A DNA stretch of 64,000 nucleotides, taken from the NCBI RefSeq assembly GCF_001895025.1, contig NZ_BCXI01000015.1, positions 124,001 to 188,000 on the forward strand, written 5' to 3'. This stretch comes from Rhodococcus zopfii NBRC 100606 = JCM 9919. Lineage in GTDB: Bacteria; Actinomycetota; Actinomycetes; Mycobacteriales; Mycobacteriaceae. The translations under genes and the position numbers were made by a program. Below the pieces are notes generated by a model, which worked only from the letters and a program-made list of their open reading frames with translations, had not been told where the DNA came from and searched no databases. Shown here one piece after another: positions 18,819 through 33,664 of this stretch. Each line of letters starts with the position of its first letter. Position 1 is the stretch's first letter.

Positions 18819-19952
18819 TCAGCCTTTCCCGCGCTGCCCCACCAGTGCCGCGGTCTCCCGATGCAGTCGACCGAAGTTGTAGTAGGCGGCACATGCTCCT
18901 TCGGGGGAAACCATGCAGGTGCCGATCGGCGTCTCGGGTGTGCATGCGGTTCCGAACACCTTGCACTCCCAGGGTTTGATCACGCCCTTGAGCACCTCAC
19001 CGCACTGGCAGGCCTTCGGATCGGCCACCCGCACACCGGGCATCGAGAAGCGTTGCTCCGCATCGAACTCGGCGTAGTCCGGGTGGATACCCAGCGCACT
19101 CTGCGAGATGAATCCCAGTCCGCGCCACTCGAAGTGGGGACGCAGCGCGAACGTCTGCGCCAGCAACGTCAGGGCCTGCCGATTGCCCTCGCTGCGCACC
19201 ACGCGGCTGTACTGGTTCTCGACCTCGCACCGCCCGTCCCGGATCTGGCGCAGCAGCATGTGCACCGACGCGAGGATATCGAGCGGCTCGAAACCCGCTA
19301 CCACGATCGGTTTCCCGTACCTCTCCGGTACGAATCGGTACGGACGCAGACCCACGACGGTCGACACGTGGCCCGGCCCGAGGAACCCGGACAGACGCAG
19401 ATCCGGCGACTCGAGGATCGCCTTGATCGGCGGCACGATCGTGACGTGATTGCAGAACACCGAGAAGTTCGTCAGGCCGAGCTGTTTCGCACGCACCAGG
19501 GTCACGGCGGTGGACGGCGCGGTGGTCTCGAACCCGACCGCGAAGAACACCACCTGCTTGTCCGGGTGGTCGACGGCGATTTTGAGCGCGTCGAGCGGCG
19601 AGTACACGAACCGCACATCGGCGCCCCGCGCCTTCGCCTCGAGAAGGTTGCCCCGGGATCCGGGCACCCGCATCATGTCCCCGAATGTCGTGAACACGAC
19701 GTCGGGCTGTTCGGCCAGCCACATCGCGTCGTCGATACGACCCATGGGGATGACGCAGACGGGGCAGCCCGGTCCGTGCACCAGCTGCACCGACGGCGGC
19801 AGCAGATGTTCGATGCCGTGCCGGTAGATGGTGTGGGTGTGCCCGCCGCACACCTCCATGAACTTGAACTCGTCCCCGGCCGCGAGGTCGGTGATCGCTG
19901 CGACCAGGGCCCGGGCCGCGGCCGGGTCCCGGAACTCGTCGACGAATTTCAT
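18819..19952 (-). CDS. hypD: Hydrogenase maturation protein HypD
   Basis: 377 residues, the usual HypD length. Conserved signatures are FMEVCGGHTHTIYRHG (Cys35), HGPGCPVCV (Cys63, Cys66), FAVGFETTAPSTA and the C-terminal cysteine-rich part with KACQCGEVLKG and VFGTACTPETPIG, which ligates the [4Fe-4S] cluster. HypD with HypC forms the scaffold on which the Fe(CN)2CO unit of the [NiFe] site is built in the cytoplasm. It lies 28 bp after hypC and 2 bp before the DUF6390 gene. Confidence 0.96.
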   Translation of the reverse strand: MKFVDEFRDPAAARALVAAITDLAAGDEFKFMEVCGGHTHTIYRHGIEHLLPPSVQLVHGPGCPVCVIPMGRIDDAMWLAEQPDVVFTTFGDMMRVPGSRGNLLEAKARGADVRFVYSPLDALKIAVDHPDKQVVFFAVGFETTAPSTAVTLVRAKQLGLTNFSVFCNHVTIVPPIKAILESPDLRLSGFLGPGHVSTVVGLRPYRFVPERYGKPIVVAGFEPLDILASVHMLLRQIRDGRCEVENQYSRVVRSEGNRQALTLLAQTFALRPHFEWRGLGFISQSALGIHPDYAEFDAEQRFSMPGVRVADPKACQCGEVLKGVIKPWECKVFGTACTPETPIGTCMVSPEGACAAYYNFGRLHRETAALVGQRGKG

Positions 19953-19980: not shown

Positions 19981-20265
19981 TCATCTCGGCGTCGTGTCGA
20001 TCTCCGAATTCGTGAACGCCTCGATCTCGTTGACGTAGTCGGCGCCCATCCGGCGCACCTGATCGAGCGTCATCTGCGCCTCCGCCTCGTCGATGCGTGA
20101 CATCGCGAACCCGACGTGCACGAGCACCCAGTCACCGACCTGCAGCCCGGTGCCGGCGAGCAACCGGATGCTGATCGCCCGCTGCACCCCGTTGACGTCG
20201 ACCTTCGCGAGGTCCTGGTCGGCGTCGAGGATGTCGACGATCCTTCCCGGAATTCCCAGACACAC
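19981..20265 (-). CDS. hypC: HypC/HupF hydrogenase formation chaperone (copy 1, next to hypD)
   Basis: 94 residues from GTG 20265, chosen because AGGAGA lies 6 bp before it and because it gives the required N-terminal Met-Cys (MCLGIPGR). Cys2 is the residue that contacts the iron and the immature large subunit. The rest, including VGDWVLVHVGFAMSRID, is canonical, followed by a tail of about 25 residues. It is one of two free-standing HypCs in this operon (the other is at 25285-25539). Confidence 0.93.
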   Translation of the reverse strand: MCLGIPGRIVDILDADQDLAKVDVNGVQRAISIRLLAGTGLQVGDWVLVHVGFAMSRIDEAEAQMTLDQVRRMGADYVNEIEAFTNSEIDTTPR

Positions 20266-20282: not shown

Positions 20283-21422
20283 TCAACAGATTCGCGGCAG
20301 CGGGTCGCCGACGAGCATGTCGACGATCCGGGTACCTCCGAACGCGGTGCGCAGCGCGACGATGCCTTCCGGTTCCGCAAGGATCTCGCCGACGACCGCC
20401 GCGGCCTCACCACCGGCCTGCCCGCGCAGCGCAGCGAGCGCCGCGTCCGTCTCGTCCGCGGCGACCACCGCCACGAACTTGCCCTCGTTCGCCACATACA
20501 GCGGGTCGATGCCGAGCAGGTCGCACGCGCCGAGGACCGCAGGCCGGATCGGCAGCGCCGCCTCGTCGAGTACGACCGCGAATCCGGTGGCCTGCGCGAG
20601 TTCGTTGCACACGGTGCCGACGCCGCCGCGGGTCGCATCCCGCATCCACCGGGTCGCCGGGGCCGCCGCGAGCAGCGCCTCCACCATGCGGTGCACGGGC
20701 GCGGTGTCGGACGCGATGTCCGCCTCGAGTGCGAGTTCACCGCGCGCGAGCAGCACCGCCATACCGTGGTCACCGAGCGGACCGGACACGACGACCCGGT
20801 CGCCGGGCCGGACCAGGTCCGCGCCCAGCCGACGACCGGCGGGTACCACCCCCACACCCGCGGTGCTGATGTAGAGCCCGTCGGCGGAACCCTTGCCGAC
20901 GACCTTGGTGTCCCCGGTGACGATGGCGACCCCTGCACCGGACGCCGCGGTCGCCATGTCCGCGACGATCTCCCGCAGCCGGGCGATCTCGAATCCCTCC
21001 TCGATCACGAATGCCGCCGACAGCCAGCGCGGCCGGGCACCGGACACCGCAAGATCGTTGACGGTGCCGTGGACCGCGAGGTGCCCGATCGAACCGCCCG
21101 GGAACTGCAGGGGTTTGACGACGTACGAATCGGTCGAGAACGCCAGGCGCTCGCCCACACCGACCGCCCCGCCGGCGGCGCCCACACCGACCGCCCCACC
21201 GGCGGCGCCCGCATCGAGGACGCCGACGGCGGCGTCGCCGAGCTGTTCGAGTTCGGGGTTACGGAACGCGTCCACGAACACCGCATCCACCAGGGCCGCG
21301 GACGCCTTGCCGCCGGCCCCGTGGGAGAGGGTGACGACCGTGTCGAGCAGACGCGGACGCCGGCGCCGGAACGCCTCGATCCGGTCCAGGACCCGATCTT
21401 CGCGACCCGCGTCGGTGCTCAC
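20283..21422 (-). CDS. hypE: Hydrogenase maturation protein HypE
   Basis: 379 residues from GTG 21422, overlapping the SIS gene by 4 bp. PurM-like ATP-binding features are TLSHGAGGKAS, FSTDSYVVKPLQFPGG, AIVTGDTKVVGKG and DATRGGVGTVCNELA. The protein ends PRIC, giving the C-terminal cysteine that HypF carbamoylates and HypE dehydrates to thiocyanate, the cyanide source. A 9-residue unit AAGGAVGVG is duplicated near residues 73-90 by a 27-bp tandem repeat. Confidence 0.95.
   Translation of the reverse strand: MSTDAGREDRVLDRIEAFRRRRPRLLDTVVTLSHGAGGKASAALVDAVFVDAFRNPELEQLGDAAVGVLDAGAAGGAVGVGAAGGAVGVGERLAFSTDSYVVKPLQFPGGSIGHLAVHGTVNDLAVSGARPRWLSAAFVIEEGFEIARLREIVADMATAASGAGVAIVTGDTKVVGKGSADGLYISTAGVGVVPAGRRLGADLVRPGDRVVVSGPLGDHGMAVLLARGELALEADIASDTAPVHRMVEALLAAAPATRWMRDATRGGVGTVCNELAQATGFAVVLDEAALPIRPAVLGACDLLGIDPLYVANEGKFVAVVAADETDAALAALRGQAGGEAAAVVGEILAEPEGIVALRTAFGGTRIVDMLVGDPLPRIC
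21154..21207. repeat. 27-bp tandem duplication inside hypE
   Basis: Two adjacent 27-bp units (21154-21180 and 21181-21207) differ at one base and encode a doubled GGAVGVGA-type glycine-rich loop ahead of the FSTDSYVV strand. The unit length is a multiple of three, so the frame is kept. It is likely a recent slippage or duplication product. Confidence 0.85.
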
Positions 21423-22096
21423 GGCCGGCCTCCCGCAGTCTCGGTGTCGCGCTCGAGATGCTCCTGCGTGGCCTCCCACAAGCGGTATCCGAGCAAGGCG
21501 TGGCTCTCCTGGATGCGGTGAATGCTCTGGGAGCGGACCGTGAAGCAGAAGTCCAGGTCGTCGGTGACGGCCATCCGGCCGCCGTCGTGCCCGGCGAACC
21601 CGACGGTGAGCAGGCCGCGGAATCTCGCCTCGGCGAGGGCGGTCATGAGATCGTCCGAGTTGCCGGAGGTGGACAACGCGATCGCGACGTCGACCGGTTT
21701 CGCGTGGGCGATGATCTGCCGCGAGAAGATCAGGTCGAATCCGACGTCGTTGCCGAGGGCCGTGACCACGGCCTGGTCCGCAGCCAGGGACCACGCGGGC
21801 ACCGGACGGCCCCGTGCGGGCCTGCTGAACAGGGAGGCGAGGGTCGCGGCATCGGTGGAGCTGCCTCCGTTGCCGAACGTGTAGAGCCGGCCGCCGCGCG
21901 CGAAGACCCGGGCCATGCGCTCTCCCGCGGACTCGAGCGCCGCTCCCCATTCGTCGATCGACTCCTGTTGCAGCCGCGCACTCTCCGCTGCCTTGCTGCG
22001 GGCGGACGCGGCGAGGTCGCGCAGCAGCGGCCCGGCGTCACGCTCCTCCGCATCGATGAACGGATACAGGAAGCCGGTCTCCTCCGGTTCGCTCAC
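21419..22096 (-). CDS. SIS-domain phosphosugar isomerase-like protein (GmhA-like)
   Basis: 225 residues from GTG 22096, preceded by AGAGAGG. The SIS fold is shown by GRLYTFGNGGSSTDA (about 69-83) and DVAIALSTSGNSDDLMTAL, the sugar-phosphate loops of GmhA-type sedoheptulose-7-phosphate isomerases, with an N-terminal helix bundle. A stand-alone SIS protein between hypE and the SIS-HypC fusion suggests a role in hydrogenase assembly or its control, not in lipopolysaccharide heptose synthesis, which this type of organism lacks. It overlaps hypE by 4 bp. Confidence 0.82.
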   Translation of the reverse strand: MSEPEETGFLYPFIDAEERDAGPLLRDLAASARSKAAESARLQQESIDEWGAALESAGERMARVFARGGRLYTFGNGGSSTDAATLASLFSRPARGRPVPAWSLAADQAVVTALGNDVGFDLIFSRQIIAHAKPVDVAIALSTSGNSDDLMTALAEARFRGLLTVGFAGHDGGRMAVTDDLDFCFTVRSQSIHRIQESHALLGYRLWEATQEHLERDTETAGGRP

Positions 22097-22100
22097 GGTG

Positions 22101-22856
22101 TCACCTCTCTGCCGGATCTGCAGGAACGTCGAGCCGGGTGAGCGCGACACCGCCGTGCACGACGAGCAGATCGTGCGCGGCAACGGATTCCAGGATCGAC
22201 ACGTCGACGTGTTCCTCACCGCCCGCGGTCCGCACCAGGGCGGTCGTGGCGGCGGCGCCGGGTGAGGCGATGACCTCCGCGAGCCTGCCCTCGTCGCCGC
22301 ACGTCACGCACACCGCGTCGGGCTGGTCTTCGGCGAGCAGCCCGGGATGTTCGAAAACCACGTGGGTCAGCTCCCACAGCAGGTGGTACAGCAGCACGAA
22401 CCGGCCGGTGGCCGGCACCATCGGATCGTTCGAATCGACCCACAGCACGTGCGTGGCGGCCCCGGCGGGTGGGCGGGGCCCGGCGCCGATCCAGATGGTG
22501 TCGGTGCCCCACGCTGCGGCGCGTCGCGCGATGTCGAGGACGTCGGGTTCGTCCGCGGCGGCGACAGCGAGGACGACATCACCCGGCCGGGTCGCGACCC
22601 GGCACTGGGCGACCGGGTCCGGCTCGACCAGCGACACCGCCGGCAACGCCCGCTTACCCATGATCACCGGATGCACGAATTCCACGGCCACGTGGTGCGC
22701 GTGCGGTTCCCATTGCGGCGACACCACCCACAGGGTCGCGCCGGCGTGGAATCTCCGCGCCAAGCCCAGCGCCGCCGTCGCCAGATCCGCGGCGAGTTCC
22801 TCCCCGATCGGGTTCTCGCCGATCGGCGGATTCTGTTGCTGTGTCGTCGGTGTCAT
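22101..22856 (-). CDS. SIS-like domain fused to a HypC-like domain
   Basis: 251 residues from ATG 22856, overlapping hypF by 4 bp. Residues about 25-175 read like a SIS phosphosugar-binding domain (PHAHHVAVEFVHPVIMGKRALPAVSL, then DTIWIGAG). Residues about 181-244 fit the small beta-barrel of HypC (ALVRTAGGEEHVDVSILESV, then DLLVVHGGVALTRLD). The HypC N-terminal Cys is replaced by an internal CVTC pair (Cys183, Cys186). Related proteins are annotated as HupF-type hydrogenase assembly proteins. The exact role is unknown. I infer that it couples a phosphosugar-like ligand to hydrogenase maturation. Confidence 0.72.
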   Translation of the reverse strand: MTPTTQQQNPPIGENPIGEELAADLATAALGLARRFHAGATLWVVSPQWEPHAHHVAVEFVHPVIMGKRALPAVSLVEPDPVAQCRVATRPGDVVLAVAAADEPDVLDIARRAAAWGTDTIWIGAGPRPPAGAATHVLWVDSNDPMVPATGRFVLLYHLLWELTHVVFEHPGLLAEDQPDAVCVTCGDEGRLAEVIASPGAAATTALVRTAGGEEHVDVSILESVAAHDLLVVHGGVALTRLDVPADPAER

Positions 22857-25288
22857 CGCACACGTCCCGTCGATACCTCGTCCGCCGCCCGCTCTGCCCC
22901 CAGGTCGGCTCGCCGCCGTGGGGACGGGGCGGCTCGCCGCCGTGCGAGGGTGGCGCCGATCGCGGCCTGCCCCAACGACAGCCCACCGTCGTTCGACGGC
23001 ACCCGGCTGTGCGTCAGGACCTCGAACCCACTGTCTTGCAGCATAGTTCGCACACCGTCGGTGAGCAGGCGATTCTGGAAGACACCGCCGGTCAACCCGA
23101 TCGTGGAGATTTGCGCGGCGGTGGCGATCCGCGCCGCCAGCCGTGCGACGGCGACCGCGAGCGCACAGTGGAATCCGAGCGCCAGATCCGCGGCCGGAAC
23201 CCCCAGCCGCAGGCCCCCGACCAGGCAGCGCAGCGTCCCGGTCCAGTCCAGTTCGTCGCCGAGCACCGCCATCCGCACCGGCGCCGGTCCCGCCGCGGTC
23301 CGCGCGAGCGCCTCGAGTTCCACGGCCGCCTGCCCCTCGTACGTGATGCGATGACGCACCCCGAGCAGGGACGCCACCCCGTCGAACAACCGCCCGGCAC
23401 TCGTGGTGCGCACGCAGCCGATGCCGGACCGCAACTGGGACGCCACCAGGTCCCGCTCCGCGGCGGGGAGAGCACCGGCGCACGGCAGGTCGGCCACCTC
23501 CGGCGAGGTGGGCTCACCGATACCGGCGTCGCGCAGCAACGCCAGCGCGACCCGCGCCGGGGTCCGCACCGCGACGTCGCCGCCGGGCAGCAGGAACGAC
23601 CGCAGGTGCCCGGCCCGGTGCATGTCGAGCAGGTCCGGTCCGACGAGCAGCAGTTCCCCGCCCCACACCGTCCGGTCGCAGCCGTATCCGGTGCCGTCGA
23701 ACGCGATGCCGAGGGCCGGCGCACCGATCCTGCCGTGTTCGGTGAGCAGCGACGCGACGTGCGCGTGGTGGTGCTGCACGGTGTGCAGGGCGACGCCGTG
23801 GTCGTCGGCGTAGCTCTCGGCCCACTGCCGCGTCGCGTAGCCGGGGTGGGCGTCGGCGACGACGAGTTCCGGGGTGACCCGGTGCAGCGCGGTCAGCCGC
23901 GCCACGGACGTTTCGAACGCGCGCCGGCTCTCCAACGAGCCCATGTCCCCGAGGTGCGCCGAACAGAACGCGTACTCCTGCCGGGTGAGGCAGAAGGTGT
24001 TCTTCAGTTCCGCGCCGACCGCGAGGACCGGCGGCGACGCCTCGCCGAGCAGCACCGGCATCGGCGCGTAGCCGCGCGAGCGCCGGATCGGCGCCTCCCG
24101 GTCACCGTCCCTGGTGTGCGTCGTGTCGTTCCGCTCGTGGACGACCGCGACCACCGAATCCTCGCAGGGCACCGCGATCTGCCGATCGTGCACGAGGAAC
24201 AGGTCGGCGATGCCGCCGAGACGGGTGCGGGCCTCACCGTCGTCGGTGCACAGCGGTTCGCCGGAGGCGTTTCCGGACGTCATCACCAGCAGGCGCGGCA
24301 CCGGATTCGGATGTCCGGGCACCGGCATGAACAGTAGGTGGTGCAGCGGCGTGTATGCGAGCATCACCCCGAACTCGCCCAGACCCGGCGCCACGTCGTC
24401 GGCGACGGTGGTGGCGGTCCGCTTGTCCAGCAGCACGATCGGGCGTGCGGACCGGGTCAGGGCCGCGATCTCCCGCTCGGACACGGCGCACTCCGCCGCG
24501 ACCGTCGCCACGTCCGGTGCCATCAGCGCGAACGGCTTGTCGGGCCGCCGCTTGCGTTCGCGCAGCCGCCGGACGGCGCCGGGATCGGTCGCGTCGCACA
24601 CCAGGTGGTAGCCGCCGAGCCCCTTGACGGCCACGATCTGCCCGGCCGCGAGTGCGCGCTGAACCGCCGCCAGCACCTCGTCGTCGCCGTCGACACGGTC
24701 GGCTCCACGTTCGGCATGGATCCTCGGACCGCAGTCCGGGCAGCAGATCGGCTGGGCGTGATACCGCCGATCGACCGGGTCGGCGTATTCGCGGGCGCAG
24801 CGCGGGCACATCGGGAACGCGGCCATCGTCGTGGCGGGACGGTCGTAGGGCAGGTCGGTGATCACCGTGTAGCGAGGTCCGCAATGGGTGCAGTTGACGA
24901 ACGGATGCCGGTAGCGGCGGTCGGCCGGATCGTTCAGTTCCCGGAGACAGTCCACGCACGTGGCGACGTCGGGTGGGATCAGAGTGCGCAATCCCGGTGT
25001 ACGACGGCTGTTCACGATGCGAAAATCGCGGTCGCCCAGGGGCGTGCGCGGGACCGACGTCAGGCCGAGCACCTCGGCGAGCGGCGGGGCGTCGTCCCGC
25101 AACCGTCGCACGAACTCGTCGAGTACGGCGGTGGCTCCTTCGATTTCGACGAACACTCCGGCATCGTCGTTCCCGCACAGCCCGGCCAGGCGCAGTTCCC
25201 CGGCCAGGCCCGCAACGAAGGGCCTGAATCCGACGCCCTGCACCACCCCCCGGACGGTCACGCGGCGGCGCTCGACGGCGCTCGTCAC
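22853..25288 (-). CDS. hypF: Carbamoyltransferase HypF
   Basis: 811 residues with all HypF domains in order: acylphosphatase (about 8-95, VRGVVQGVGFRPFV), two zinc fingers (Cys111/114/133/136 and Cys161/164/183/186), YrdC-like domain (about 200-385) and Kae1-like domain (about 400-790, with QHHHAHVASLL and FDGTGYG). It uses carbamoyl phosphate and ATP to carbamoylate the C-terminal cysteine of HypE. It overlaps hypC copy 2 and the SIS-HypC gene by 4 bp each. Confidence 0.96.
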   Translation of the reverse strand: MTSAVERRRVTVRGVVQGVGFRPFVAGLAGELRLAGLCGNDDAGVFVEIEGATAVLDEFVRRLRDDAPPLAEVLGLTSVPRTPLGDRDFRIVNSRRTPGLRTLIPPDVATCVDCLRELNDPADRRYRHPFVNCTHCGPRYTVITDLPYDRPATTMAAFPMCPRCAREYADPVDRRYHAQPICCPDCGPRIHAERGADRVDGDDEVLAAVQRALAAGQIVAVKGLGGYHLVCDATDPGAVRRLRERKRRPDKPFALMAPDVATVAAECAVSEREIAALTRSARPIVLLDKRTATTVADDVAPGLGEFGVMLAYTPLHHLLFMPVPGHPNPVPRLLVMTSGNASGEPLCTDDGEARTRLGGIADLFLVHDRQIAVPCEDSVVAVVHERNDTTHTRDGDREAPIRRSRGYAPMPVLLGEASPPVLAVGAELKNTFCLTRQEYAFCSAHLGDMGSLESRRAFETSVARLTALHRVTPELVVADAHPGYATRQWAESYADDHGVALHTVQHHHAHVASLLTEHGRIGAPALGIAFDGTGYGCDRTVWGGELLLVGPDLLDMHRAGHLRSFLLPGGDVAVRTPARVALALLRDAGIGEPTSPEVADLPCAGALPAAERDLVASQLRSGIGCVRTTSAGRLFDGVASLLGVRHRITYEGQAAVELEALARTAAGPAPVRMAVLGDELDWTGTLRCLVGGLRLGVPAADLALGFHCALAVAVARLAARIATAAQISTIGLTGGVFQNRLLTDGVRTMLQDSGFEVLTHSRVPSNDGGLSLGQAAIGATLARRRAAPSPRRRADLGAERAADEVSTGRVR

Positions 25289-25539
25289 GGCTCGTCTCCC
25301 CGGTCGAGGCCGCGGCCCATCAGTTCCAGGCCGGCCAGGGCACGTTCGGCGCCGGCCTCGTCGACCCGTTCCACCGCGAAACCCATGTGGATGACGACCC
25401 AGTCGCCGGGCGCGAGGGTTCCGTCGTCGAGCAACCCGATGTTGATGCGGCGGCTCTCACCCACGACGTCGACGAGCGCCAGCTGACCGCCGTAGCCCGC
25501 GAGCAGACGGATCACCCGACCGGGAATTCCCAGGCACAC
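25285..25539 (-). CDS. hypC: HypC/HupF hydrogenase formation chaperone (copy 2, next to hypF)
   Basis: 84 residues starting MCLGIPGRVIRLL, with Cys2 in place, and a canonical GDWVVIHMGFAVERVD end. It overlaps hypF by 4 bp and follows the maturation-protease gene by 3 bp. Two HypCs in one operon may divide the work: one with HypD on iron-centre assembly, the other bound to the large subunit. Which does which cannot be read from sequence. Confidence 0.93.
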   Translation of the reverse strand: MCLGIPGRVIRLLAGYGGQLALVDVVGESRRINIGLLDDGTLAPGDWVVIHMGFAVERVDEAGAERALAGLELMGRGLDRGDEP

Positions 25540-29830: not shown

Positions 29831-31615
29831 TCACTCCCCGGTGACCGACTGGGTCGGCGAATGCATCTTCTCGAGGGTTTTCCCGTCGCCCAGATACATG
29901 TGCACGCCGCACGGCAGACACGGATCGAAACTGCGCACGGTCCGCATGATGTCGATGCCCTTGAAATGCTCGCGGTCGTTCTCCTCGAAGATCGGCTGGC
30001 CCTGCACCGCGTCCTCGTAGGGGCCGGGTGTCCCGTAGCTGTCGCGGGGGCTGGCGTTCCACGGCGTCGGCGGGTACGGATGGTAGTTGGCGATCTTGCC
30101 GTCCCGGATCACCAGATGGTGCGAGAGCACGCCGCGCACCGCCTCGGTGAACCCGCAGCCGATGCCCTCGTCCGGTACCTCGAACGTCTCCCACGTCTTG
30201 GTGCGGCCGGCGCGGATCTCCACGAGCGCCTTCTCGGCGAAATGCAACGCACAGGCGGCCGCGTAGGCCTGGAAGTAGGTTCGGGCGCGGTTGCGTTCGA
30301 GAGTGTTGCTGCCGTGTTGCGGGATCTTCCATTCGAGCGTCACCGGGGGTTTCAACGCGGTCTTGGGCAGGTTGATCTTCACGCTCGACCCGGTCGATTC
30401 GACGTAGCCGATGTCGACGAGCCCGGCCAGCGCGGTCGACCAGAGCCGGGCCAGCGGTCCCCCTCCGGTGTCGAGTGCCAGGTGATCGGTGCCGTCGAAC
30501 CAACGCGGCGACATCACCCAGCTGTACTTGTCCTCGAGGTCGCGCTTCTGCGGGCGCGGATTGGTGTGCTGATTCCACGGGTGCCGCCGGTCGACGGGGT
30601 TGCCGAGAGGGTCCGTCCGTACGAACGTCTCCTGGTCGGTCCAGTCCTCGTAGTAGGACGAGCCCAGCAGGATCCGCAGACCCAGGTTGATGTCCACCAG
30701 CGAGGTGGTGACCAGTTCGCCGTCGACGACCACCCCCGGGGTCACGAACATCTTCCTGCCCCAGTCCTCCATGTCCCGGTAGGAGAAGTTGCAGACCTCG
30801 GGATCTTGGAAAGCGCCCCAGCAGCCCAGCAGGGTGCGCCGCAGCCCCACCTTCTCGTAGCCCGGCAGGGCTTCGTAGAAGAAGTCGAACAGGTCGTCGT
30901 GCATCGGCACGACCTTCTTCATGAATTCCACGTAGCGCATGAGCCGGCTCAGGTAATCGGTCATCAACTGCACCGTGGCCACCGTGCCCACGCCGCCGGG
31001 GTACAGCGTCGAGGGATGCACATGGCGGCCTTCCATGAGGCAGAACATCTCTCGGGTGGACCTGCTGACGTGCAACGCCTCGCGGTAGAACTCTCCGGTG
31101 AACGGGTTCAGGGACCGCATGATGTCCGCGATGGTGCGGTAGCCGTGCTGGTCCTCGTGCGGTGCGCGGGTGTTCTCGGCTCGCGCCAGGACGGACGGGT
31201 TCGTCTCCGAGACCATCTTCTCGCAGTAGTCGACCCCGACGAGGTTCTCCTGGAAGATGTTGTGGTCGAACATGTATTCGGCCGCCTCGCCGAGATTGAC
31301 GATCCACTCGCCGAGGTGCGGTGGTTGCACGCCGTACGCCATGTTCTGCGCGTAGCACGAGCAGGTGGCGTGGTTGTCACCGCAGATGCCGCAGATGCGG
31401 CTGGTGATGAAGTGCGCGTCGCGGGGGTCCTTGCCCTTCATGAACAGCGAGTACCCCCGGAAGATCGACGAGGTGCTGTGGCATTCGGCGACAGTGTTGT
31501 TCGCGAAGTCGACCTTCGTGTAGATACCGAGGCTGCCGACGATTCGGGTGATGGGATCCCAGGCCATCTCGACGAGCGAGTCGGCGGAACGGGGATCGGG
31601 CGCGGTGGCTGTCAT
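29831..31615 (-). CDS. [NiFe]-hydrogenase large subunit, group 1h type
   Basis: 594 residues. The N-terminal nickel motif is RICGICGDNH (73-82, Cys75 and Cys78) and the C-terminal one is DPCLPCGVH (Cys566, Cys569, His572). The last 22 residues after His572 form the tail removed by the endopeptidase. Length near 590 and the SFDPCLPCGVHMYLG end fit the high-affinity actinobacterial hydrogenase (group 1h, formerly group 5), which oxidises atmospheric H2. It lies 34 bp after the small subunit gene, with AGAAGG as ribosome binding site. Group assignment is by remembered motifs. Confidence 0.95.
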   Translation of the reverse strand: MTATAPDPRSADSLVEMAWDPITRIVGSLGIYTKVDFANNTVAECHSTSSIFRGYSLFMKGKDPRDAHFITSRICGICGDNHATCSCYAQNMAYGVQPPHLGEWIVNLGEAAEYMFDHNIFQENLVGVDYCEKMVSETNPSVLARAENTRAPHEDQHGYRTIADIMRSLNPFTGEFYREALHVSRSTREMFCLMEGRHVHPSTLYPGGVGTVATVQLMTDYLSRLMRYVEFMKKVVPMHDDLFDFFYEALPGYEKVGLRRTLLGCWGAFQDPEVCNFSYRDMEDWGRKMFVTPGVVVDGELVTTSLVDINLGLRILLGSSYYEDWTDQETFVRTDPLGNPVDRRHPWNQHTNPRPQKRDLEDKYSWVMSPRWFDGTDHLALDTGGGPLARLWSTALAGLVDIGYVESTGSSVKINLPKTALKPPVTLEWKIPQHGSNTLERNRARTYFQAYAAACALHFAEKALVEIRAGRTKTWETFEVPDEGIGCGFTEAVRGVLSHHLVIRDGKIANYHPYPPTPWNASPRDSYGTPGPYEDAVQGQPIFEENDREHFKGIDIMRTVRSFDPCLPCGVHMYLGDGKTLEKMHSPTQSVTGE

Positions 31616-31649: not shown

Positions 31650-32705
31650 CTACCAGGTGCGGGTGGCTCCGGTCGTCAATGTTGTACCGGGCCCGCGCCA
31701 CGACGGCTCGTGGTCCAGGGTCCGTCTCGTGATCTTGCGCAGGTTCCGGATGACGGAGCCGTACACGCCGACGGCGGTGCTCGACAGCAGCCCGCCCGGT
31801 GGTTCGTCCATGAACGGCATGAACTTGTCGGGGAATCCCGGCATCGTGCATCCGATGCAGATTCCGCCGACGTTCGGGCACCCGCCGATGCCGTTCATCC
31901 AACCACGTTTGGGCACATTGCATCTGACGACCGGCCCCCAGCAACCCAGCTTGACGATGCACTTCGGCGAGCCGTACTCGGTCGCGAAGTCGCCCTGTTC
32001 GTAGTAGCCGCCGCGGTCGCAGCCCTCGTGGACGGTCAGCCCGAACAACCACTGAGGACGAAGCGCCTCGTCGAGCGGAATCATCGGCGCCTGATCCGTC
32101 GCCATGTACAGCAGGTAGGTGATCGTCTCGGACAGGTTGTCCGGCTGGATCGGACACCCGGGCACGCAGACGATGGGGATGCCGGCCTTGGATTTCCAGT
32201 CCCAGCCCAGATAGTCGGGGACGCCCATCGCGCCGGTGGGATTACCCGCCATCGCGTGGATGCCACCGTATGTGGCGCAGGTTCCGGCGGCCACGATCGC
32301 CGTGGCCTTGGGTGCCAGCCGATCGAGCCATTCGCTGGTGGTGATCGGCTGTCCGGTCTCCTCGTCGTTGCCGAAACCGCACCAGTAGCCGTCGTCGTGG
32401 AGTTTCTCGTTGGGAATCGACCCCTCGACGACCAGCACGAACGGTTCGAGTTCACCCCGGTCGGCCTTGCGGAACCACTCGAGGAAGTCGTCGGCGCCAC
32501 CTTCGGGCCCGCACTCGAAGTCGATGAGCGGCCAGTGCACCGCGACCTTCGGCAAACCCGGCAGCGCCCCGAGTGCGATCTCCTCGATGGTGGGCTGCAT
32601 CGCGGCGGTGAGCGCGACGGAGTCACCGTCGCAGCTGAGGCCGGCGTTGATCCACAGCACGTGTATCAACGTGTCCTCGGCCGCCAGCGCTTGTGGTGTA
32701 GGCAT
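31650..32705 (-). CDS. [NiFe]-hydrogenase small subunit, group 1h type (CxxD proximal-cluster motif)
   Basis: 351 residues from ATG 32705. The proximal-cluster motif reads LSCDGDS: Cys25 is kept but the second cysteine is Asp28, with Cys143 and Cys184 completing a 3Cys-1Asp site, the hallmark of the O2-insensitive actinobacterial enzyme. Distal ligands are His226, Cys229, Cys249 and Cys255. The medial region has Cys262, 276, 283 and 286, so a [4Fe-4S] cluster is possible where standard enzymes have [3Fe-4S]. There is no twin-arginine signal, so the enzyme is expected to stay in the cytoplasm. Confidence 0.95.
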   Translation of the reverse strand: MPTPQALAAEDTLIHVLWINAGLSCDGDSVALTAAMQPTIEEIALGALPGLPKVAVHWPLIDFECGPEGGADDFLEWFRKADRGELEPFVLVVEGSIPNEKLHDDGYWCGFGNDEETGQPITTSEWLDRLAPKATAIVAAGTCATYGGIHAMAGNPTGAMGVPDYLGWDWKSKAGIPIVCVPGCPIQPDNLSETITYLLYMATDQAPMIPLDEALRPQWLFGLTVHEGCDRGGYYEQGDFATEYGSPKCIVKLGCWGPVVRCNVPKRGWMNGIGGCPNVGGICIGCTMPGFPDKFMPFMDEPPGGLLSSTAVGVYGSVIRNLRKITRRTLDHEPSWRGPGTTLTTGATRTW

Positions 32706-32783
32706 GCGGAGCCACCTTCCGGAGTGCCGGTTCACTCCTGCACTGTCGGAGTCGACCGTCGGCCCACTTGCACAGCGCTTCTC

Positions 32784-32827: not shown

Positions 32828-33664
<837 letters not shown>

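Follow-up and report, generated by a model that had tools for sequence, protein, structure and literature searches.

Introduction

In GmhA, the sedoheptulose-7-phosphate isomerase with a SIS fold, the active site is built at the interface between subunits. The zinc ion of the Neisseria gonorrhoeae enzyme is bound by H61, E65 and H183 of one chain together with Q175 of the neighbouring chain (PMC5387315), and in a modelled tetramer of the Mycobacterium tuberculosis enzyme the substrate touches N53, G55, S121, T122, S123, S126 and Q173, Glu66 being supplied by another chain (PMC7705670). Here we describe two neighbouring genes of Rhodococcus zopfii NBRC 100606 = JCM 9919 over whose products this set of residues is divided. 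They lie in a group-1h-like [NiFe] hydrogenase operon on the minus strand of a 64-kb stretch of DNA (contig NZ_BCXI01000015.1, positions 124,001–188,000), referred to below as the window. One gene encodes a SIS-like domain (SISa) fused to a HypC-like domain (HypC*), the other a stand-alone SIS protein (SISb).

An accessory system for comparison is HypX, which makes the CO ligand of the [NiFe] cofactor from formyl-tetrahydrofolate under O2; it is the one aerobic CO-ligand route described in the literature consulted, the CO source being otherwise left open (PMC12134894). The present genes resemble hypX in being accessory genes of aerobic [NiFe] maturation, but HypX consists of formyltransferase and enoyl-CoA-hydratase domains, for which neither window protein has a match, and no Pfam domain is shared.

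The presence of a GmhA-like gene in such operons is already in print. A figure legend marks 'gmhA' and a glutaredoxin in acidobacterial group 1h loci (PMC5900883), a 'SIS domain' cluster (cluster 37, 68 genes) is listed near hydrogenases (PMC12727194), and a table for Mycobacterium smegmatis has 'gmhA' MSMEG_2706 among hyp genes, next to hypE (MSMEG_2705) and together with hypF (MSMEG_2711) (PMC5445863). The genes of the first two reports are apparently the same as those treated here, noted by annotation, and the available text of both puts forward no function, split site or pairing. In an industrial erythromycin over-producer of Saccharopolyspora erythraea both 'gmhA' genes (SACE_3069 and SACE_3071) carry frameshifts and hypD (SACE_3073) a nonsense codon (PMC3359211); these joint changes fit a shared function. 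A proposal of function for the pair, or a description of its divided active site, was not found in the literature searched, subscription journals lying mostly outside that search.

Results

A GmhA-type residue set divided between two domains

The stand-alone protein was called GmhA-like in a first-pass annotation made from the letters of the window, and this holds: SISb matches Pfam SIS_2 (E 5.8e-14) and GmhA in the PDB (E 2.4e-27). It falls below the NCBIfam gmhA equivalog cut-off (103.5 vs 209.45 bits). SISb retains the phosphate-loop motifs G75NGGS79 and S142TSG145, as well as S147 and Q196, and because these pocket motifs are kept it probably binds a phosphorylated ligand. At the positions of GmhA H61, E65 and H183 it has T85, L89 and Y204.

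For the fusion protein, the Pfam search gave no SIS match and a sequence search of the PDB gave no match. Its AlphaFold2 model (mean predicted local distance difference test score, pLDDT, 66.5), computed from an alignment (A7) in which three SISa rows are partly misplaced, resembles GmhA over residues 3–175 (Foldseek E 3.5e-7; 2x3y_C, Z 13.2, 167 residues, root-mean-square deviation 4.1), a part modelled with low to moderate confidence (block pLDDT 44–75). SISa is thus predicted to have a SIS fold of GmhA topology, the model match being of modest confidence. Its residues H55, E59 and H158 correspond to GmhA H61, E65 and H183; the GNGGS and STSG phosphate loops are missing, and so is Q175, where SISa has T150. 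The full set of H61, E65, Q175, H183 and phosphate loops is found in neither window protein; it is present in the single SIS gene of Cupriavidus necator (H16_RS31885 in strain H16). As read from the aligned residues, SISa and SISb share out the site along the line that separates one GmhA chain from the next.

Residues were tallied in 255 distinct SIS domains from hydrogenase loci, after 10 duplicates had been dropped. Exactly one half is present in 252 of them, the metal half in 128 and the pocket half in 124; of the remaining three, one has both halves (C. necator pHG1), one has neither (L009) and one, at a contig end, has no letters in this region (L072). The SISa class was defined by H61 and E65, H183 not being used in the definition, and H183 is retained in 125/128 metal-half domains; Q175 is likewise retained in 122/124 pocket-half domains. 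The residues that replace H61/E65 in SISb vary by lineage (D/D, T/L, E/S, D/L, G/L and others). When SISb is fused to SISa in one chain, they are replaced by an Asp pair that is invariant in 46 rows of alignment A6, and a second, different metal site in these fused SISb domains is possible.

The model of a fused SISa-SISb homologue (pLDDT 88) matches GmhA (1tk9, Z 29.6, 187 residues) and, over its whole chain, two-SIS isomerases (Z about 28, 315–350 residues). The latter, namely the isomerase domain of GlmS/GFAT and tagatose-6-phosphate ketose/aldose isomerase, also carry two SIS domains per chain, but their identity in the structural alignments is 9–15%, compared with 29–36% when the SISb half is aligned to entries of GmhA and DiaA. 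GmhA itself shares with the pair the SIS fold, the GNGGS and STSG loops, the H/E/Q/H metal set and the interface active site; it differs in that the set found in the window is spread over two degenerate paralogous domains whose genes belong to hydrogenase operons.

The HypC* domain

The first-pass annotation had also read the fusion as a SIS-like domain joined to a HypC-like barrel at residues 181–244, and both parts find support, the SIS part from the GmhA model match given above. Residues 200–243 match Pfam HupF_HypC (E 5.2e-5), with 23.8 bits against a gathering score of 28.5; this score is passed by the orthologue from a Mycobacterium intracellulare plasmid (L013, 44.9 bits) and by three stand-alone relatives from other phyla (38.3–47 bits). 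AlphaFold2 places five strands between residues 191 and 242 (block pLDDT 90–94 for 191–240). No HypC entry is among the matches listed in either structure search of the fusion, SIS entries filling the listings, so that the assignment of the barrel rests on the sequence match and the predicted strands.

The N-terminal Cys of HypC was said to be replaced by an internal CVTC pair. The pair is real (C183 and C186), and the HypC histidine is retained as H234. The distance from the first Cys to the His is 51 residues in the window and most commonly 49 in HypC* (13/26, range 48–52; in the 27th copy, L024, the script matched an earlier stretch), and it is 49 from Cys2 to His51 in canonical HypC copy 1 of the same operon. 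A cysteine moved inward and doubled thus fits better than one replaced. CxxCxD is found inside the window protein and in all 27 HypC* copies examined, and the HypC* of the window lacks the N-terminal Met-Cys2. Compared with the HypC/HybG/HupF chaperones, HypC* has the predicted barrel and the conserved histidine in common, whereas the internal CxxC pair in place of Met-Cys and, in the window, the fusion to a SIS domain set it apart. Like HypC, HypC* may still be able to bind iron or to make contact with HypD, with an extra thiol.

Origin and distribution of the pair

A maximum-likelihood tree was computed from 69 domains (LG+G4, ultrafast bootstrap) and rooted on one GmhA. SISa forms a clade with support 100 and SISb one with 85; SISb together with the C. 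necator protein has 88, and all three together 100. The 11 GmhA-like proteins in the tree do not form a clade. Because of this topology we conclude that a single hydrogenase-linked GmhA-like gene was, on the sequences at hand, duplicated once and that its copies lost opposite halves of the site; the order of the duplication relative to the C. necator gene is moderately supported.

Scanning named genomes with the SISa alignment yielded at least 592 stretches and at least 510 relatives, of which the best 80 loci were kept, in a ranking biased toward sequences related to the Thermus sequence that stood first. By record title the pair occurs in about 12 phyla among these 80 loci, many of them in metagenome-assembled genomes: the hosts belong to Acidobacteriota, Deinococcota, Thermomicrobia and other Chloroflexota, Bacillota, Rhodothermales, Gemmatimonadota, Verrucomicrobiota, Armatimonadota, Planctomycetota, Eremiobacterota, Actinomycetota and Pseudomonadota. 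SISa and SISb form one open reading frame at 78/80 loci, the other two being cut by contig ends, and C. necator has one undivided SIS gene. At least one hyp gene lies in the stretch at 78/80 loci (the exceptions are L079 and L084). Of the 67 loci with an annotated gene upstream, 65 have hypE as the closest.

Downstream of the fused SIS gene, the annotation continues with a small glutaredoxin-like gene in 61/80 loci (L016–L095); in the Thermus record it is named 'Uxx-star' (L014, 10043–10303). Its product is a possible electron or thiol partner in the same step. On a Sulfobacillus acidophilus plasmid (L015, 8815–10049) the SISa-SISb coding region is distributed between two reading frames, and the record annotates no gene there.

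Linkage to HypD and to hydrogenase large subunits

Presence of SISa in a genome was scored at E < 1e-20 with profile A4; weaker matches, many of them GmhA-like or SISb, were left out. Among 393 genomes of the host's class, taken to be Actinomycetes from its nearest named orthologue, which is mycobacterial, 25 have SISa and 101 have HypD. All 25 SISa genomes have HypD, and SISa occurs in none of the 292 HypD-negative genomes, in agreement with the earlier view of a phosphosugar fold tied to the Hyp machinery. Among the stretches compared, the HypD of seven clusters with an intact SIS pair scores 596–743 bits to the window HypD, and that of eight SIS-free clusters 387–430 bits (G860 by the Thermus reference). 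The first HypD type also occurs in stretches without an intact pair, in G577 (597 bits), G616 and G521 (590 and 591) and G025 (626).

When 296 genomes of the phylum were searched, a large-subunit match at E <= 1e-100 was obtained in 40. SISa was found in 18 of the 27 whose large subunit is at least 65% identical and in 11 of the 13 whose large-subunit identity is only 38–44%. In 10 of the 18 it shares a contig with the large subunit and lies within 11 kb of it; in the other eight, which are fragmented assemblies, it is on another contig. Of 20 genomes without a large-subunit match, one has SISa (G203), and there the pair lies inside a hyp cluster. In an acidobacterial sample, where 8/149 genomes have the large subunit and two of these eight had been chosen beforehand for having SIS, 28 genomes were compared: SISa is strong in 5/8 with the large subunit and 0/20 without. 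The six that were not preselected have SISa strong in three (G371, G438, G504) and absent in two; in G431 it just misses the threshold (1.1e-20) and lies on the same contig as the large subunit.

An exclusive tie to group 1h, raised in the first-pass annotation as a co-occurrence to be checked, is not supported. The pair also accompanies other large-subunit types, among them one 29% identical to that of the window, and SISa is present in genomes whose only large-subunit matches are those of 38–44%.

Relation to HypX

As a query for HypX we used the C. necator protein P0004, annotated 'hydrogenase maturation protein' and encoded after hypE, which contains the formyltransferase and enoyl-CoA-hydratase domains. 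In the class sample HypX is present in 2/25 SISa genomes, as against 25/76 of the other HypD genomes, an anti-correlation that is weak (Fisher one-sided p 0.011, 101 HypD genomes). A 1h-like large subunit is present in 27 genomes, 17 with SISa only, five with HypX only, one with both and four with neither, G088, which has SISb alone, being one of the last (p 0.008, or 0.004 when G088 is counted with SIS). In four of the five HypX-only genomes (G083, G342, G352, G183; no SISa) hypX adjoins 1h structural or hyp genes. Strict mutual exclusion is ruled out, both SISa and HypX being present in G143, G597 and G766 and neither in 51 of the 101 HypD genomes of the class.

HypX was further sought in 22 genomes of the 80 named loci, picked for spread, and was found in none of them (0/10 and 0/12), nor in any of the six acidobacterial large-subunit genomes that were not preselected; the search behind the 0/12 and the acidobacterial result included no internal positive, the query having matched in other genome searches. 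This scarcity is compatible with a replacement of HypX by the SIS pair and is no proof of it. HypX relatives also occur in four genomes without a HypD match (G109, G273, G701, G780), so that HypX-like proteins may have roles outside hydrogenases.

Gene order in the window

The features of the operon are collected in Table 1. The C. necator pHG1 large subunit, used there for comparison, is one that we take to be of group 1h. Further accessory genes lie between the large-subunit gene and the first canonical hypC.

Table 1. Features of the hydrogenase operon discussed in the text (window positions)
Feature	Positions	Strand	Remarks
Small subunit, hydrogenase	31650..32735	-	
Large subunit, hydrogenase	29831..31615	-	77% identity to C. 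necator pHG1 large subunit, same operon type
hypC, canonical copy 1	25285..25539	-	MCLGIPG...
hypF, carbamoyltransferase	22853..25288	-	4-nt overlap with start of fusion
SISa domain of fusion, residues 1–178	22323..22856	-	H55, E59 and H158 kept
HypC* domain of fusion, residues 179–251 including stop	22101..22322	-	CVTC (C183/C186), His234; five-stranded barrel predicted
SISb, stand-alone GmhA-like protein, 225 aa	21419..22096	-	GTG start
hypE	20283..21422	-	GTG start; 4-nt overlap with stop of SISb
hypC, canonical copy 2	19981..20265	-	MCLGIPG..., GTG start
hypD	18819..19952	-	

The fusion gene (22856–22101, 251 aa) runs from an ATG to a stop at 22103–22101; read on the plus strand, 22101–22856 contains an internal stop. 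The first-pass annotation described two overlapping genes between hypF and hypE. The genes are indeed there, on the minus strand, but they do not overlap each other: 4 nt separate the fusion stop from the GTG of SISb (22096), and each overlaps its outer hyp neighbour by 4 nt. The hypF stop and the fusion ATG share ATGA (22856–22853), and the SISb stop and the hypE GTG share GTGA (21422–21419). With both genes packed this tightly among Hyp genes, translational coupling is probable.

Two further features of the window were noted. Within hypE a 27-nt unit is repeated in tandem with one mismatch (21153–21206, minus strand), which gives AAGGAVGVG twice at residues 73–90, and HypB has near its start a long His-Glu/His-Gly repeat (about 33520–33612, minus strand), perhaps for nickel storage.

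Discussion

We propose that SISa-HypC* and SISb each form one half of a GmhA-derived heteromeric metalloenzyme dedicated to [NiFe] cofactor assembly and docked via HypC*, a proposal to which we would give an even chance. The phosphate pocket and catalytic Gln would come from SISb, and from across the interface between the subunits SISa would contribute the His/Glu/His metal triad. The HypC* domain, or in some lineages the product of a separate HypC* gene, would probably tether the enzyme to the HypC/HypD scaffold that builds Fe(CN)2CO. We would guess that the substrate is a small phosphorylated carbonyl compound used in aerobic [NiFe]-cofactor assembly, and our leading guess is that it is turned into the CO ligand or a precursor of it. 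That the SIS domains might supply such a precursor had been suggested in the first-pass annotation, and the support found for it is only indirect: HypX is scarce among genomes with SISa. In its specific form, SISa/SISb would be a second, HypX-independent CO-ligand enzyme for aerobic [NiFe]-hydrogenases that opens a phosphorylated carbonyl compound in a composite metal site and passes a one-carbon unit to the iron held by HypC*/HypD, a version we regard as doubtful.

The other suggestion of that annotation was that the SIS domains bind a sugar phosphate and gate maturation. The binding of a phosphorylated ligand is probable; that the pair does no more than switch cofactor assembly with carbon status, with no catalysis, seems to us unlikely. 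Ligand sensors of the RpiR and GKRP type are among the fold matches, and Hhy-type hydrogenases are starvation enzymes. In a microarray table (PMC5445863) M. smegmatis MSMEG_2706 and the hyp genes beside it are entered under 'Oxygen Limitation'. A sensor, however, requires the pocket and not a metal triad, of which H183 is so rarely lost from SISa; a pure gate leaves the retention of the whole metal and pocket set across two chains unexplained, and in the window Pfam shows neither a DNA-binding domain nor any other regulator domain joined to the pair. Alternatively, the SIS heteromer could serve as a scaffold on which HypC* is offered to HypD, or could shield the Fe intermediate from oxygen. 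The named hosts are mostly known as aerobes, HypC* is fused to SISa in the family of the window and in some relatives, and in G025 it is joined to a degenerate SIS part. A scaffold or protection role of this kind has been proposed for HupF-HupK/HoxL-HoxV (PMC12134894). Such a role explains neither why the catalytic motifs are divided with one full set per pair nor the intact single gene of C. necator, and we judge it rather improbable.

Instead of a sugar phosphate, the pair might handle a very small acyl phosphate, such as carbamoyl phosphate for HypF or formyl phosphate. The position of the genes between hypF and hypE in the window would suit this, but HypF functions elsewhere without the SIS pair, and fold and motifs are of the sugar-phosphate isomerase type. 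Formyl phosphate has been named as a possible route to formyl-CoA (PMC12134894). On balance there seems to be only a slim chance of this. That the genes encode an ordinary GmhA or housekeeping SIS proteins, placed in the operon by chance, is scarcely credible. The NCBIfam and PDB matches of SISb are to GmhA, but the score lies under the family cut-off, each chain lacks catalytic residues, the domains have their own clade, and among the 393 genomes SISa never occurs without HypD; the family cut-off and the residues led us to reject it.

Several observations weigh against a divided metalloenzyme of cofactor assembly. Fused forms retain the Q in SISa and H183 in SISb, so that a full division is confined to lineages close to that of the window; the common denominator of the lineages is, as predicted from the residues, one complete composite site. 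HypC* was recognised in 15/80 loci only, and its link to the SIS pair is therefore not universal. In G025 (L009/L149, from about 10044 in L149) the fusion has the CxTC and His of HypC* intact and a SIS part that has lost the H and E of the metal site, and SISb is absent from the hyp cluster; to judge from this genome, both SIS halves appear to degenerate in step. G088 has SISb (L143, 10113–11282) beside 1h-like structural genes, and SISa was not detected in its genome. The 51 HypD genomes with neither SISa nor HypX imply that a SIS enzyme is not generally needed for maturation, and a 1h-like large subunit occurs without either in G098, G068, G232, G577, G584 and G818. As to HypX, 24 of the class sample's 25 HypX-only genomes belong to one genus (g45), so that the anti-correlation may rest on few events; the SIS pair moreover goes with a particular HypD type, and the anti-correlation may reflect two Hyp lineages.

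Independently of hydrogenases, the pair provides a clear case of a duplication followed by the reciprocal loss of the halves of an interface active site. For the hydrogenases, it is a candidate for an unassigned step in the building of the iron-carbonyl cofactor, with specific residues identified. Many of the hosts are aerobes for which oxidation of trace H2 is known or assumed; if the CO-enzyme reading is true, many atmospheric-H2 oxidisers without HypX would obtain the CO through SISa/SISb.

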